This document shows positions 24,226-27,366 of a stretch of 64,000 bases of DNA, piece after piece (the stretch's first letter is position 1; every line of letters begins with the position of its first letter). Made by a program: the position numbers and the translations under genes. The notes under the pieces were generated by a model. That model searched no databases. It saw nothing but the letters and a program-made list of their open reading frames with translations, and had not been told where the DNA came from. The stretch is from Actinomycetes bacterium (GTDB lineage: Bacteria > Actinomycetota > Acidimicrobiia > Acidimicrobiales > Ilumatobacteraceae): contig JAIOPC010000014.1 in NCBI GenBank assembly GCA_021414085.1, positions 930,001 through 994,000 on the forward strand. The letters run 5' to 3'.

Positions 24226-24985
24226 GCCGCTCATTTCCGGCAACTGGAAAATGAATCTCAATCACTTCGAAGCGATTCAGACTGTGCAGAAGTTGGCCTA
24301 CCTGGTGGGCAAGGAAGAGCTGAACGTCGCTGATGTCAGCATCCACCCACCGTTCACCGACATTCGCAGCGTGCAGACGGTGATCGACAGCGACAAACTT
24401 GGCTACGCGCTCGGCGCGCAGCATTGTCACTGGGAAGACAAGGGTGCCTTCACTGGCGAAGTGTCGCCCATCTTCCTAGCGAAGTTGGGTGTGCAGTATG
24501 TGATCGCCGGCCACAGCGAGCGCCGCGAGTTGTTCGGCGAGACCGACGAGACGGTCAACAAGAAAGTCGCCGCGATCTTGCAGCAGGGGATGACGCCGAT
24601 CATGTGCGTCGGCGAGACACTGCAGGAACGCGAAGCAGGGGAGACCGAAGCGAAGGTGCTTGGCCAGGTTCGTGCAGGGTTGGCGAATCGCAAGCCCGCG
24701 CAGGTTGCCTCGCTGGTGATTGCCTACGAGCCGATCTGGGCCATCGGCACCGGGCGCAATGCAACAGCCGACGATGCCCAGCAAGTGTGCGCCGCCATCC
24801 GGCGCTGCGTGGCCGAACTGTCGGGCGCCGAAGCCGCGGCCAGCGTGCGGGTGCAGTACGGCGGCAGCGTGAAGGCAGGCACCATCGCCGAACTGATCGC
24901 GCAGCCCGATATCGATGGCGCCCTCGTGGGCGGCGCCAGCCTGGACCCGGACGAGTTCGCCCGCATCTGCAAGCTCGGCGCGTAG
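24218..24985 (+). CDS. tpiA: triose-phosphate isomerase
   Basis: TpiA interconverts dihydroxyacetone phosphate and glyceraldehyde 3-phosphate. The 255 aa barrel has the catalytic lysine in GNWKMN (residues 7-12), the electrophilic His in IAGHSERR, the catalytic Glu in AYEPIWAIGTG with its flexible lid, and the phosphate loop YGGSVKAG. It overlaps the end of pgk by 8 bp. In related genomes secG follows directly; here secG is 8.4 kb away. Confidence 0.97.
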   Translation: MRKPLISGNWKMNLNHFEAIQTVQKLAYLVGKEELNVADVSIHPPFTDIRSVQTVIDSDKLGYALGAQHCHWEDKGAFTGEVSPIFLAKLGVQYVIAGHSERRELFGETDETVNKKVAAILQQGMTPIMCVGETLQEREAGETEAKVLGQVRAGLANRKPAQVASLVIAYEPIWAIGTGRNATADDAQQVCAAIRRCVAELSGAEAAASVRVQYGGSVKAGTIAELIAQPDIDGALVGGASLDPDEFARICKLGA

Positions 24986-25077
24986 ACGGTCTCGACCGTC
25001 TAGAGGCGAACGTCCTGAAGTTCAGGGTCAGCCGACCCTCTGCGACGATGAGACGTTAAGTGTCTGATTGTCTCATC
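24985..25077. promoter_or_regulatory. stacked inverted repeats after tpiA and before the diiron operon
   Basis: Three perfect stems follow each other: GACGGT/ACCGTC (24985-25000, 4 nt loop), GGGTC/GACCC (25025-25038) and GATGAGAC/GTCTCATC (25047-25054 with 25070-25077, 15 nt spacer). A short CTGAA/TTCAG also lies at 25015-25025. The first stems, immediately after the tpiA stop, may terminate transcription. The last, 41 bp before ATG 25118, is well placed as an operator for the downstream operon. Confidence 0.5.
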
Positions 25078-25117
25078 GCCGCGGCCGCGGGTCGGCGGCT
25101 CGATGGAGGCTCATCAA

Positions 25118-26242
25118 ATGACGCTTACACAGGATCCGACACAGACCGATCGCGGGAACGGCGACGGCCGCTACGACAACCTGCCAACGGTTTCGCCGCT
25201 GGGCAATCCGCTCGACTGGAAGTGGCTGCGGGGCGCTAAATCCGAGTGGGGTGTGCGACCCAAAATCGGTCCGCGCGGTTTGACCATGCTCGATATTGCT
25301 ACCGGCACTTACGGCGATGTGCCCGACAATCCGACGCACCGATCGATGGCCCCTCGTGGTGCCGACATTGATCCCGACACTCCCGACATGGGCTACATCC
25401 TCAACAAGAAGAGCGACGTGTGGGCCGAGAACGTGGTCGAGCTGTACGAGGAGGCGGTGGCCCGTCAGTGGAGCGCGACTCGCGACATTCCGTGGGGTGA
25501 GTTGCGCGAGCTGCCCAGCGATATCGAACACGCAATGTGCCAAGTGTGCACCACGCTCACAGAAGTGGAGATGATCGCTGCTGACCTTCCCGCCAAGTGG
25601 ATGTGGCGCATGAACCACGACTTCTTGGAAGCCAAAATGTTTCTCTGCACACAAATCATGGACGAGGCTCGCCACGCAGAAGTTTTCCGTAAGCGCGCAC
25701 TCGCGAATGGTGGCGGCCTGCTGATGTCGCGTGGCCAAAGCGAGGGTCTGCTGCGCACCATCATCGAGGCCAAGAGCTACACGCAAGCAACCGCGCTGAT
25801 GCATCTGCTTGGCGAAGGGTTCATCCTCGACATCTTTCGGATGGGCGAGTTGATCTCACCATCGCCGGTTGAGAAGCGCATGTTTCGGATGGCCATGCAG
25901 GACGAAGCGCGACACGTTGCCTACGGCACGATGCACATCCGCTACGCCGTCGAACAAGATCCAGACGTTGCTGAAGAAATTCATGAGGCACTGGATCACG
26001 GCGAGGCGGTGCTGACTGCGTTCGGCACCAACCAGGACTTTGGCACCGCGCTGGCGGTGTTGCTGGGTGGCGGCGTCGAGCATGTGGAAACCAAGGGCTT
26101 TGAGCTACAGGCCGACATGCAGCGCAAGCAGTTCGCCTCTTACCTCGCCCGCTGCGAGCGTGCTGGTATCAGTCGCTTGCACCGCACCAAGCTGCCGCTC
26201 GAACTGCTGGGCCTCGACCCGAACACGATTCTTGCGAACTGA
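25118..26242 (+). CDS. ferritin-like diiron protein (putative oxygenase)
   Basis: This 374 aa helical protein carries a ferritin/ribonucleotide-reductase-type diiron site. Candidate ligands are the Glu in TTLTEVEMIAAD, DEARHAEVF (ExxH), the Glu in HLLGEGFILDIF and QDEARHVAYG (second ExxH). The first 90 residues are less structured and may form a lid or partner site. The family is known for substrate oxidation or O2/peroxide chemistry, but I cannot assign the substrate. ATG 25118 is chosen because GGAGG (25105-25109) lies 8 nt upstream. It leads an operon with an SCP2-like carrier, a zinc ribbon protein and a ferredoxin, a natural electron donor. Confidence 0.78.
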   Translation: MTLTQDPTQTDRGNGDGRYDNLPTVSPLGNPLDWKWLRGAKSEWGVRPKIGPRGLTMLDIATGTYGDVPDNPTHRSMAPRGADIDPDTPDMGYILNKKSDVWAENVVELYEEAVARQWSATRDIPWGELRELPSDIEHAMCQVCTTLTEVEMIAADLPAKWMWRMNHDFLEAKMFLCTQIMDEARHAEVFRKRALANGGGLLMSRGQSEGLLRTIIEAKSYTQATALMHLLGEGFILDIFRMGELISPSPVEKRMFRMAMQDEARHVAYGTMHIRYAVEQDPDVAEEIHEALDHGEAVLTAFGTNQDFGTALAVLLGGGVEHVETKGFELQADMQRKQFASYLARCERAGISRLHRTKLPLELLGLDPNTILAN

Positions 26243-26254
26243 ACGGAGCATCAA

Positions 26255-26689
26255 ATGCGCATTGATACGGAAGCCTTTTTCGTCGCTCTGGCCGACGAAC
26301 TCAACGCTCACCCAGAACAATTCAAGGTTCATGGAGAGGCCGACATGGTGGCGGCGCTCGTGATGCGCAAGGCCGATGGCGACTTCGCCGTGCGGGTTGC
26401 ATTCGAGGGCATTCGCGTTGAGGCGGTCAGCGAGATCGTGCCAGCCGATGTCGTTGGCGCCGACTACTACCTAGACGGCCCACTGCCGGCATGGCAGGCG
26501 ATGTTCGACGACATCCTCGCCAACGGCGCGGCGAGCGGCCGCCTCACGATCAACAGCCTCGCGCTGCTTGGCACCGAGATTCGCCTACGCGGCGACGATC
26601 CAATGGGTGTCGACAAGTTCTCGCGGTTCAACCAAACCTTGCAGGAATACCTCGACGGTGCAGCTCGCGTAGCTGTCGCCGCGGGCTGA
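26255..26689 (+). CDS. SCP2-like lipid/hydrophobic-ligand carrier protein
   Basis: This 144 aa alpha/beta protein has the layout of the sterol carrier protein 2 fold: a strand-rich N-half (ALVMRKADGDFAVRVAFEGIRVEAV) and the later PLPAWQAMFDDILANGAASG...LTINSLALLGTEIRL. A GGAG ribosome binding site (26245-26248) is 6 nt before the ATG. It lies 12 nt after the diiron gene and shares its GGAG-CATCAA-ATG context. Its likely job is to bind or present a hydrophobic substrate to the diiron protein. Family assignment is by pattern, not by a search. Confidence 0.6.
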   Translation: MRIDTEAFFVALADELNAHPEQFKVHGEADMVAALVMRKADGDFAVRVAFEGIRVEAVSEIVPADVVGADYYLDGPLPAWQAMFDDILANGAASGRLTINSLALLGTEIRLRGDDPMGVDKFSRFNQTLQEYLDGAARVAVAAG

Positions 26690-26703
26690 GAAAGGACGAC
26701 ATC

Positions 26704-26916
26704 ATGAACGCTCCCAACTGCCCGAACTGTGGTCAACCAATCACCCGAGTCGTCGATGTGCCGTATGGCTGGTGGGAGTGGACCGGCGACAAGTACGAAA
26801 ATCGCAACGCTGCCACCCGCGTCGACGTTGCTCCGTGGGTGCACCTCGACTGCATGGGCGAATTGCGCAAGTTCCACCCGCAAAACCCAGTGACCGCCGA
26901 AACTGCTGGCGCGTGA
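26704..26916 (+). CDS. small zinc-ribbon protein (70 aa)
   Basis: A 70 aa protein with one clear CPNCGQP knuckle near the N-terminus and a later H-x-D-C (VHLDCMG) that could complete a zinc site, with several Trp/Tyr residues in between (PYGWWEWTGDKYENR). A GAAAGGA ribosome binding site lies upstream. It sits 14 nt behind the SCP2-like gene, so it belongs to the same operon. Function is unknown; a protein-binding or electron-transfer accessory is plausible. Confidence 0.65.
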   Translation: MNAPNCPNCGQPITRVVDVPYGWWEWTGDKYENRNAATRVDVAPWVHLDCMGELRKFHPQNPVTAETAGA

Positions 26917-26955
26917 GGCTGGTTTGGGCGTGACGCGGGGCTATCGGGCACGCCA

Positions 26956-27366
26956 GTGAGCTTCGCTGTCCTACAGGATCGCTGCATCGGTTGCGGCGCA
27001 TGCGACTTTGCGTGCCATACCGACGCGCTCGTGAAGACCGACTCGTTTCTCGGGCTTTTCGAGATCAATCCATACACCTGTGACGACTGTGGCGTCTGCG
27101 TCAGCAAGTGCCCGGAGACGGCGATCGTGCCCGACGAGCGGTTTCCTGTGTGCGACGGCCGGGGCTGCCCGCTGCATTCGCAACGGCTTGCCGACACCGA
27201 GTGCGCAATCTGGCAGCAGCGGTGCCCCAGCTGCGGCACGACCCTGTGGCGGGAAACGGAGGCCACAGAGTTCGTTTGCCCCAAATGCGACTCCGGACGC
27301 AAGGTTTCATGCCCGCGGACCCGGCTGCTGGAAACCATTCCGTTTGGTCGCCCTGTCGCCGACTGA
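26956..27366 (+). CDS. ferredoxin with two [4Fe-4S] motifs and a C-terminal zinc ribbon
   Basis: The 136 aa protein begins with a bacterial-type ferredoxin: CIGCGACDFAC and CDDCGVCVSKCP (residues about 10-50) provide eight cysteines for two clusters. The C-terminal half has further cysteines (CDGRGC, CPSCG, CPKC, SC) that look like a rubredoxin- or zinc-ribbon-type site. It starts at GTG 26956, 39 nt after the zinc-ribbon gene. It is the likely electron donor to the diiron protein that opens the operon. Confidence 0.8.
   Translation: MSFAVLQDRCIGCGACDFACHTDALVKTDSFLGLFEINPYTCDDCGVCVSKCPETAIVPDERFPVCDGRGCPLHSQRLADTECAIWQQRCPSCGTTLWRETEATEFVCPKCDSGRKVSCPRTRLLETIPFGRPVAD

Follow-up and report, generated by a model that had tools for sequence, protein, structure and literature searches.

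What do the four closely spaced genes at positions 25118-27366 of a stretch of Acidimicrobiia DNA encode, and do their products together activate oxygen? The stretch (the window) comprises 64,000 nucleotides, C17:930001-994000 of the 3.2-Mb genome G000, from the Ilumatobacteraceae. An initial annotation of it had read the genes as an operon for a diiron protein, an SCP2-like carrier, a zinc ribbon and a ferredoxin, and had suggested an oxygenase whose substrate might be a lipid, sterol or polyketide. Our analysis indicates, with a probability that we put at about two in three, that these genes specify a multi-component dimetal oxygenase or oxidase of the R2lox/AurF/VlmB kind, which activates O2 and works with an SCP2 substrate carrier and a ferredoxin. 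The genes and the ribosome-binding sites read from the sequence are as follows.

25105-25109, + strand: Shine-Dalgarno sequence GGAGG of the diiron gene
25118-26242, + strand: gene for an R2-like diiron (or Mn/Fe) carboxylate protein of 374 amino acids, the putative terminal oxygenase
26245-26248, + strand: ribosome-binding site GGAG of the SCP2 gene
26255-26689, + strand: gene for an SCP2-fold protein of 144 amino acids, the putative carrier of a hydrophobic or acyl-coenzyme A (CoA) ligand
26691-26696, + strand: ribosome-binding site AAAGGA of the zinc ribbon gene
26704-26916, + strand: gene for a 70-amino-acid zinc ribbon (CxxC ... [H/C]xxC), specific to clade A (defined below)
26956-27366, + strand: gene for a 2[4Fe-4S] ferredoxin with a C-terminal zinc ribbon, 136 amino acids, GTG start

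All four open reading frames were confirmed, with gaps of 12, 14 and 39 bases between them. Tight spacing with matching ribosome-binding sites had been described for the whole set; this holds for the first three genes, and, because no clear ribosome-binding site precedes the GTG start of the ferredoxin gene, the matching sites apply to three of the four.

For comparison between loci, homologues of the diiron protein were sorted, without a tree, by their percentage identity to the window protein into bands that we call clades A to D. Clade A (67% or more identity) contains 45 distinct sequences, 34 of them with more than 2.3 kb downstream. By a script check, 33 of these 34 loci carry the diiron, SCP2, zinc ribbon and ferredoxin genes in the same order and on the same strand, an arrangement that is not due to chance given how consistently it is kept, and the order persists down to ~40% identity in the SCP2 protein and the zinc ribbon. 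Thus, the operon is real. The initial annotation had named a failure of the order to recur as grounds for giving up its proposal, and the order is conserved. The single exception, L049 (= L008, G004), lacks an adjacent ferredoxin gene and carries its ferredoxin on another contig. Among the 11 remaining clade-A loci, all three partners are present in six (L021, L033, L038, L046, L047 and L048; the ferredoxin of L038 is cut), four run out of sequence (L042, L052, L061 and L075), and L024 (G209) is damaged: its diiron match stops near residue 150, the SCP2 gene was not found, the zinc ribbon is partial and the ferredoxin is present. L021 (G052) is missing ~40 diiron residues, around 207-246, and has a recognisable ferredoxin. 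The open reading frame caller in our script is crude and overlooks small genes such as the ferredoxin of G055, which was recovered by profile search.

Further out, the zinc ribbon drops away. Among the 10 distinct loci of clade B (55-60% identity), the SCP2 gene comes next in 10, a ferredoxin is present in nine and a zinc ribbon in none; the ferredoxin of the tenth, L015 (G277), lies in a second cluster. Band C (39-43%, six distinct loci) contains three Chloroflexi loci with an SCP2 gene next and without a ferredoxin, as well as L022, L023 and L025, where no partner lies within the available 0.6-1.5 kb. For the seven loci of band D (28-36%), no partner was seen within the stretch available.

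Genome-wide profiles gave a similar picture. At E up to 0.001, the diiron profile matched 125 of the 296 class genomes, for the most part through other R2-like proteins; at E<1e-60 it matched 24 of 296, a cut chosen afterwards inside the gap between 1e-70 and 1e-44. The SCP2 profile matched 24 of 292 class genomes, and these are identical to the 24 diiron-positive ones; in a draw from the whole phylum, the SCP2 family was found in three of 296 genomes, all already in the class list. Ferredoxin and zinc ribbon searches covered 31 genomes, including five controls of our choosing. The ferredoxin profile matched 22 of the 24 SCP2-positive genomes (the misses are G197 and G212), and none of the five control genomes of the class gave a match, nor did either of the two Chloroflexi genomes at E up to 1e-20. 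The zinc ribbon profile matched exactly the 11 clade-A genomes (a fragment in G209) and none of the other 20. From these co-occurrence profiles, we conclude that the deeper unit consists of the diiron, SCP2 and ferredoxin genes, to which clade A adds the zinc ribbon, so that the four-gene system originally described stands for clade A and not more broadly.

The AlphaFold2 model of the diiron protein, made from an input alignment of 45 sequences, has a mean predicted local distance difference test score (pLDDT) of 90.5. Foldseek ranked structures of the ribonucleotide reductase R2 subunit (R2) and of R2lox at the top, with E ~2e-5. By VIA-align the best match was the azoxy synthase VlmB (8wvr; Z 24.0, root-mean-square deviation (rmsd) 2.7 over 256 residues), followed by 6d9f (Z 23.8), R2lox (Z ~23) and aldehyde-deformylating oxygenases (ADO; 22.6). 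A profile search gave 6d9f as the best match (4e-10), with 7qbk at 9.9e-8. The scores of the VlmB, R2lox and ADO structures are close together, and we pick no family from them; nor was the absence of a family from the structural alignments read as evidence against it. Alignment to the structural relatives predicts the ligands E151, E183, H186, E233, E263 and H266, which include the two ExxH motifs noticed earlier (E183xxH186 and E263xxH266). This ferritin-like dimetal fold, with ligands in the order E, ExxH, E, ExxH, agrees with that of R2lox at Z ~23. Of the 45 aligned homologues, 42 retain all six ligands, and the three that do not are Chloroflexi proteins; ligand conservation was the other point on which the initial annotation had staked its proposal, and it withstood the check.

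Family models did not place the protein. It scored 35.8 bits against the NCBIfam R2lox model NF006200, whose cut-off is 194, and fell far below the cut-offs of the other four R2lox models as well. Pfam AurF (PF11583) gave no match to the window protein even when E values up to 1 were allowed; among the 45 homologues it matched 17 with E no higher than 0.1, the best of them at 2.7e-8. Because the NCBIfam scores are below cut-off and AurF does not match, we file the diiron protein in neither R2lox nor AurF. In general, Pfam, NCBIfam and single-sequence PDB searches returned only sub-threshold matches for the diiron and SCP2 proteins, as did Pfam and NCBIfam for the zinc ribbon. Column 228, which we tentatively take as the expected position of the tyrosine of the R2lox Tyr-Val ether cross-link, is occupied by M, L, I or Q in every one of the 45 rows. 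The N-terminal ~70 residues, with near-invariant W36, G54 and G63, are barely covered by the structural matches, and we consider this conserved region a candidate interface for a partner.

The structural list raises the question of whether the protein has the chemistry of ADO or GkR2loxI, in which case the SCP2 protein would deliver a fatty aldehyde or alkane and the ferredoxin would serve as reductant. ADO structures score Z ~22, and 6d9f, whose title ascribes ADO activity to it, scores 23.8. However, a shared fold does not determine which reaction is catalyzed. The usual partner of ADO is an acyl-acyl carrier protein reductase. In the accessible text of PMC10867098, GkR2loxI is reported as an alkane monooxygenase, yet of two R2lox proteins assayed there for ADO activity none was active. 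We therefore regard aldehyde-deformylating or alkane chemistry as very unlikely for this operon.

The second protein gave a model with a pLDDT of 94.8. Foldseek matched it to 1wfr (E 9.9e-7) and 2cx7 (E 3.0e-6), and VIA-align placed it on the Thermus SCP2 protein 2cx7 over the whole domain (Z 14.2, rmsd 2.4 over 125 residues). Other SCP2 domains, including the C-terminal domains of alkylsulfatases and UbiJ, scored Z ~8-10. The Pfam matches of 44 family members at E up to 1 include no SCP2 family, and NCBIfam has none for the window protein; in a profile search against the PDB, two SCP2 proteins came topmost but only at E 0.42-0.44. Because the sequence libraries give no SCP2 match, membership is assigned from the predicted fold alone; by that fold, the earlier designation as SCP2-like was right despite their silence. 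As modeled, the protein is a putative carrier of a hydrophobic or acyl-CoA ligand.

In the ferredoxin, Pfam Fer4 (3.9e-8) and Fer4_10 (2e-7) both match above cut-off. An alignment of 31 sequences shows two CxxCxxCxxxC(P) motifs whose eight cluster cysteines are invariant, together with C66, C71, C83, the zinc-ribbon quartet C90, C93, C108 and C111, and C119, for a total of 16 invariant cysteines. In the 70-amino-acid protein, C6, C9 and C50 are invariant in an alignment of 23 sequences and position 47 alternates between H and C, as expected of a putative zinc site.

The Chloroflexi homologues, which keep the SCP2 partner, provide a natural comparison:

L078:7890-9029: Chloroflexi diiron homologue
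L079:1267-2406: Chloroflexi diiron homologue
L080:7884-9029: Chloroflexi diiron homologue

At the six ligand columns these proteins carry A, G, H, D, K and H, such that the four Glu ligands are lost, and no ferredoxin was found in the two Chloroflexi genomes searched (L078 and L080). The joint loss of ligands and ferredoxin fits a role of the ferredoxin as reductant of the metal site. The Chloroflexi homologue is possibly a metal-free R2-like protein; the E-to-K change presumably resembles that of the metal-free class Ie R2 proteins. The persistence of this homologue without the ligand set could also suit a module that is no oxygenase at all and serves redox, metal or oxidative-stress functions, in which the R2-like protein would detoxify O2, peroxide or NO or store metal and the SCP2 protein would tether it to membranes. 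Rrf2-type regulators near the operon in L073, L074 and L077 (of which only L073 was family-scanned) and the many cysteines contributed by the ferredoxin and the zinc ribbon are in line with such a module. However, it leaves the coupling to a lipid carrier hard to explain, and the closest structural relatives of the diiron protein include substrate oxidases, even though ribonucleotide reductase R2 tops the Foldseek list. We consider it improbable and return to a substrate-oxidizing system.

Upstream of the diiron gene lies a palindrome, whose second genomic copy marks a further diiron system:

25049-25075, strand not applicable: palindrome TGAGAC-N15-GTCTCA, probable TetR-type operator, or leader hairpin
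G000 C17:695432-697181: palindrome-TetR-R2-like diiron cassette (L131, L002, L166)

In the window the palindrome sits 42 bases 5' of the diiron ATG. It is exact (12 of 12 bases) in all 10 distinct loci tested with at least 84% identity, and also in L047 (78%) and in L013 of clade B (58%). The ten near loci keep an ATG 23-50 bases 3' of it, which supports the diiron start at 25118. Within the 3.2-Mb genome, the exact palindrome occurs at two places, the window operon and the start of a TetR-family gene (C17:695463-696047 of G000, L131:1532-2116; TetR_N, 2.2e-11) that is directly followed by a gene for an R2-like diiron protein, 28% identical to the window diiron protein over residues 108-284. 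In the class, 83 of 286 genomes contain the exact pattern, and by our count a reversed control pattern turns up in 13. Among 31 palindrome loci examined, which are part of those matched, TetR and R2 genes stand at 23, the window operon at two (its own and that of G019), and neither at six, one of which is cut by a contig end. Elsewhere in the phylum, 28 of 198 genomes contain the cassette R2 gene (E up to 1e-30). The surroundings of the cassette in 16 stretches include DapA-, RNase J-, FtsK-, DapB- and BioB-like genes, with an acyl-CoA-synthetase-like gene in seven of the 16 and a SURF1-like gene in five (all named by eye); the region looks like ordinary core genome and names no substrate.

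The palindrome also folds well as RNA (z -2.4 to -4.6 at four loci) and can be read as a leader hairpin. A DNA operator seems to us the better reading, since palindromes of this spacing are found repeatedly beside TetR genes. A common TetR regulator that would bind both palindrome sites is the simplest reading of these positions. At L053 and L054, which are among the more distant clade-A operons, we noticed by eye a different palindrome ~30-70 bases upstream of the diiron start, CGATAACG-NN-CGTTATCG in L054 and imperfect in L053, which is perhaps the site of a different regulator.

A second cluster (L111-L114), present in G055, G277, G010 and G127, combines a ~40% identical diiron protein and an SCP2 protein with PF04909-type and HyuB genes; HyuA is additionally present in two of the four, and PF04909-type genes number one in G127 and two in each of the other three. 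The Pfam scan covered one PF04909, one HyuB and one HyuA protein, and the other cluster members were assigned by similarity. The SCP2 gene of G010 was identified through its profile match, which lists a stop. A ferredoxin gene directly follows the SCP2 gene in G055 and lies just upstream of the diiron gene in G277. For both PF04909-type proteins of G055, the best solved relatives are DitZ (8uyr; 3.6e-55 and 2.2e-50) and PtmU3 (6omp; 3.3e-44 and 1.4e-42). PtmU3 is described in the accessible text of PMC7782822 as a non-heme diiron beta-hydroxylase of diterpenoid biosynthesis that takes CoA-linked substrates. The sister-cluster HyuA resembles the caprolactamase CapA at 611 bits, under the cut-off of 1000. 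Downstream of the clade-A operon in G052 lie a fragment of HyuB and another SCP2 gene. The sister clusters have the look of a catabolic pathway, so far undescribed, that acts on a bulky hydrophobic compound, and the context, mainly that of band C, points to oxidative metabolism of such a compound, perhaps CoA-linked.

Neighbor scans, made with one representative per cluster and the L074 desaturase, showed that clade-A operons have different neighbors in different groups. Genes for a desaturase, a flavin reductase and an acyl-CoA dehydrogenase are seen repeatedly, for the most part within a single syntenic group (part of L053-L072); the desaturase and acyl-CoA dehydrogenase neighbors, too, favor an oxidative metabolism whose substrate is hydrophobic or CoA-linked. 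Flavin-containing monooxygenase-like, diguanylate cyclase, MurT-like and dihydropyrimidinase neighbors were set aside as a pathway, since each occurs at single loci only and looks incidental. In the window, the upstream neighbor is a triosephosphate isomerase gene and the downstream neighbor a peptide-transport-like gene (both named by eye). Among the other loci compared, many with short flanks, only L075 (diiron protein 96% identical) shares the isomerase neighbor. A perfect 9-bp inverted repeat at 24983-25002, which starts at the isomerase stop codon and lacks a T run, is possibly the terminator of the isomerase gene.

The desaturases bear on a biosynthetic explanation, in which the SCP2 protein would hold a prenyl-quinone or long-chain lipid and the diiron protein would hydroxylate or desaturate it in quinone or membrane-lipid tailoring of the UbiJ/UbiT type. 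Fatty-acid desaturase genes adjoin the operon in that one syntenic group and at L074, part of the same group has cytochrome oxidase genes, and UbiJ-SCP2 is among the structural matches of the window SCP2 protein; the accessible text of PMC6747719 describes a UbiJ SCP2 domain that binds quinone intermediates in a multiprotein complex of an O2-dependent pathway. However, a presence in 24 of 292 class genomes is patchy, unlike that of a core quinone pathway, and the sister clusters, in which HyuA/B and PF04909 proteins occur, have a catabolic appearance. We judge such tailoring unlikely, and an oxygenase or oxidase with a hydrophobic, carrier-borne substrate continues to be our preferred reading.

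How does this operon compare with systems already described? The diiron protein shares with R2lox the dimetal ferritin-like fold, the identical six-ligand order and an aligned W...DI(D) stretch ahead of the first ligand helix (profile E 9.9e-8 to 7qbk). It differs in its 35.8 bits against the NCBIfam cut-off of 194, its extra conserved N-terminal region and the SCP2 and ferredoxin genes in its operon. The VlmB/AurF-type N-oxygenases supply the top profile match (6d9f) and the top structural match (8wvr), the latter tied with R2lox and ADO, but the window protein is only 17% identical to VlmB over 256 aligned residues and has no AurF match, and the operon, with its SCP2 partner, implies no nitrogen-containing substrate. 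The soluble methane monooxygenase (sMMO) and toluene 4-monooxygenase (T4MO) likewise have a carboxylate diiron site and a separate electron donor, and a methane monooxygenase hydroxylase scores Z ~21; in contrast to these, the four proteins of the window operon include no second hydroxylase subunit, regulatory protein, Rieske protein or reductase.

As in the UbiJ/UbiT system, where an SCP2-fold protein is described as working with hydroxylases on hydrophobic intermediates (PMC6747719, accessible text), the window operon would pair a carrier with an oxidizing enzyme. However, its partner is a ferritin-like diiron protein rather than a flavin monooxygenase or U32 protein, and its SCP2 model is closer to 2cx7 (Z 14.2) than to UbiJ-SCP2 (Z ~8). 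A dedicated ferredoxin is also found with AibH1H2 (PMC7782822, accessible text), and PtmU3/DitZ-like proteins are present in the sister cluster. In the AibH1H2GF and PtmU3 systems, though, the same text gives the catalyst as a triosephosphate isomerase (TIM) barrel of the amidohydrolase fold and AibG as a Rieske ferredoxin, whereas none of the four window proteins is PF04909. Each component belongs to a known superfamily, and we found no description of the combination in the open-access literature, subscription papers being outside that coverage. To our knowledge, no oxygenase of this composition has been described.

These observations can be arranged into a mechanism. The diiron protein, with its predicted fold and ligands, would be the catalyst and would activate O2 at the dimetal site. 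The SCP2 protein would bind a hydrophobic substrate, possibly a lipid, terpenoid or CoA ester, dock on the diiron protein and present the substrate there, in the way that UbiJ retains quinone intermediates for the enzymes of the Ubi pathway. The 2[4Fe-4S] ferredoxin, whose domain is plain and whose partnership is suggested by co-occurrence, would reduce the dimetal site and would take its own electrons from an enzyme whose gene lies elsewhere. In clade A, the zinc ribbon probably serves as a small subunit for assembly or coupling. The TetR repressor beside the second R2-like diiron gene probably binds the upstream palindrome, such that both diiron systems would be induced together, perhaps by a shared substrate or its CoA ester, and the product may be an oxygenated or desaturated lipid or terpenoid. 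A bolder extension, which we offer tentatively as somewhat less probable than an even bet, is that the operon defines a new class of multi-component dimetal oxygenases in which a dedicated SCP2 protein hands substrate to an R2-like catalyst, which would not draw it from solution, with a private 2[4Fe-4S]/zinc-ribbon ferredoxin, under TetR co-induction, and which in Chloroflexi has become a metal-free lipid-binding complex.

Several observations weigh against this mechanism. The oxygenase activity is deduced from predicted folds, predicted ligands and co-occurrence. The self-contained oxygenase of the initial annotation was not borne out, because there is no reductase among the four genes, and the genome was not searched for one. 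The diiron-SCP2 pair may act without O2 chemistry, since the Chloroflexi pair keeps a degraded metal site. G197 and G212 (88% and 77% complete) have an SCP2 gene and a diiron protein with intact ligands (L022 and L023) and no ferredoxin match, and G052 and G209 retain the ferredoxin despite damaged clade-A diiron genes. Because the genes outside the operon differ between groups, no pathway was identified. Finally, the palindrome is absent upstream of 32 of the 33 more distant clade-A loci and nine of the 10 clade-B loci tested, and because most of these lack it we do not claim shared regulation for the more distant operons.

The oxidation targets of R2lox-like diiron proteins are poorly known; according to the accessible text of PMC10867098, no substrate of an R2lox protein had been established until alkanes were proposed for GkR2loxI. 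This operon points to a protein-borne hydrophobic substrate and to a system that could be reconstituted. Because the palindrome links it to the TetR-R2 cassette (23 of 31 loci), inducer and substrate become testable for both systems, and TetR co-induction with a second R2-like enzyme that is common in the class would, if true, give a handle on the targets of R2lox-like oxidation. In a title-bearing collection searched with six peptide patterns, which reach close relatives only, all 49 of 49 loci come from metagenome-assembled genomes, and for this reason the operon may point to unexplored chemistry of uncultured Acidimicrobiia.

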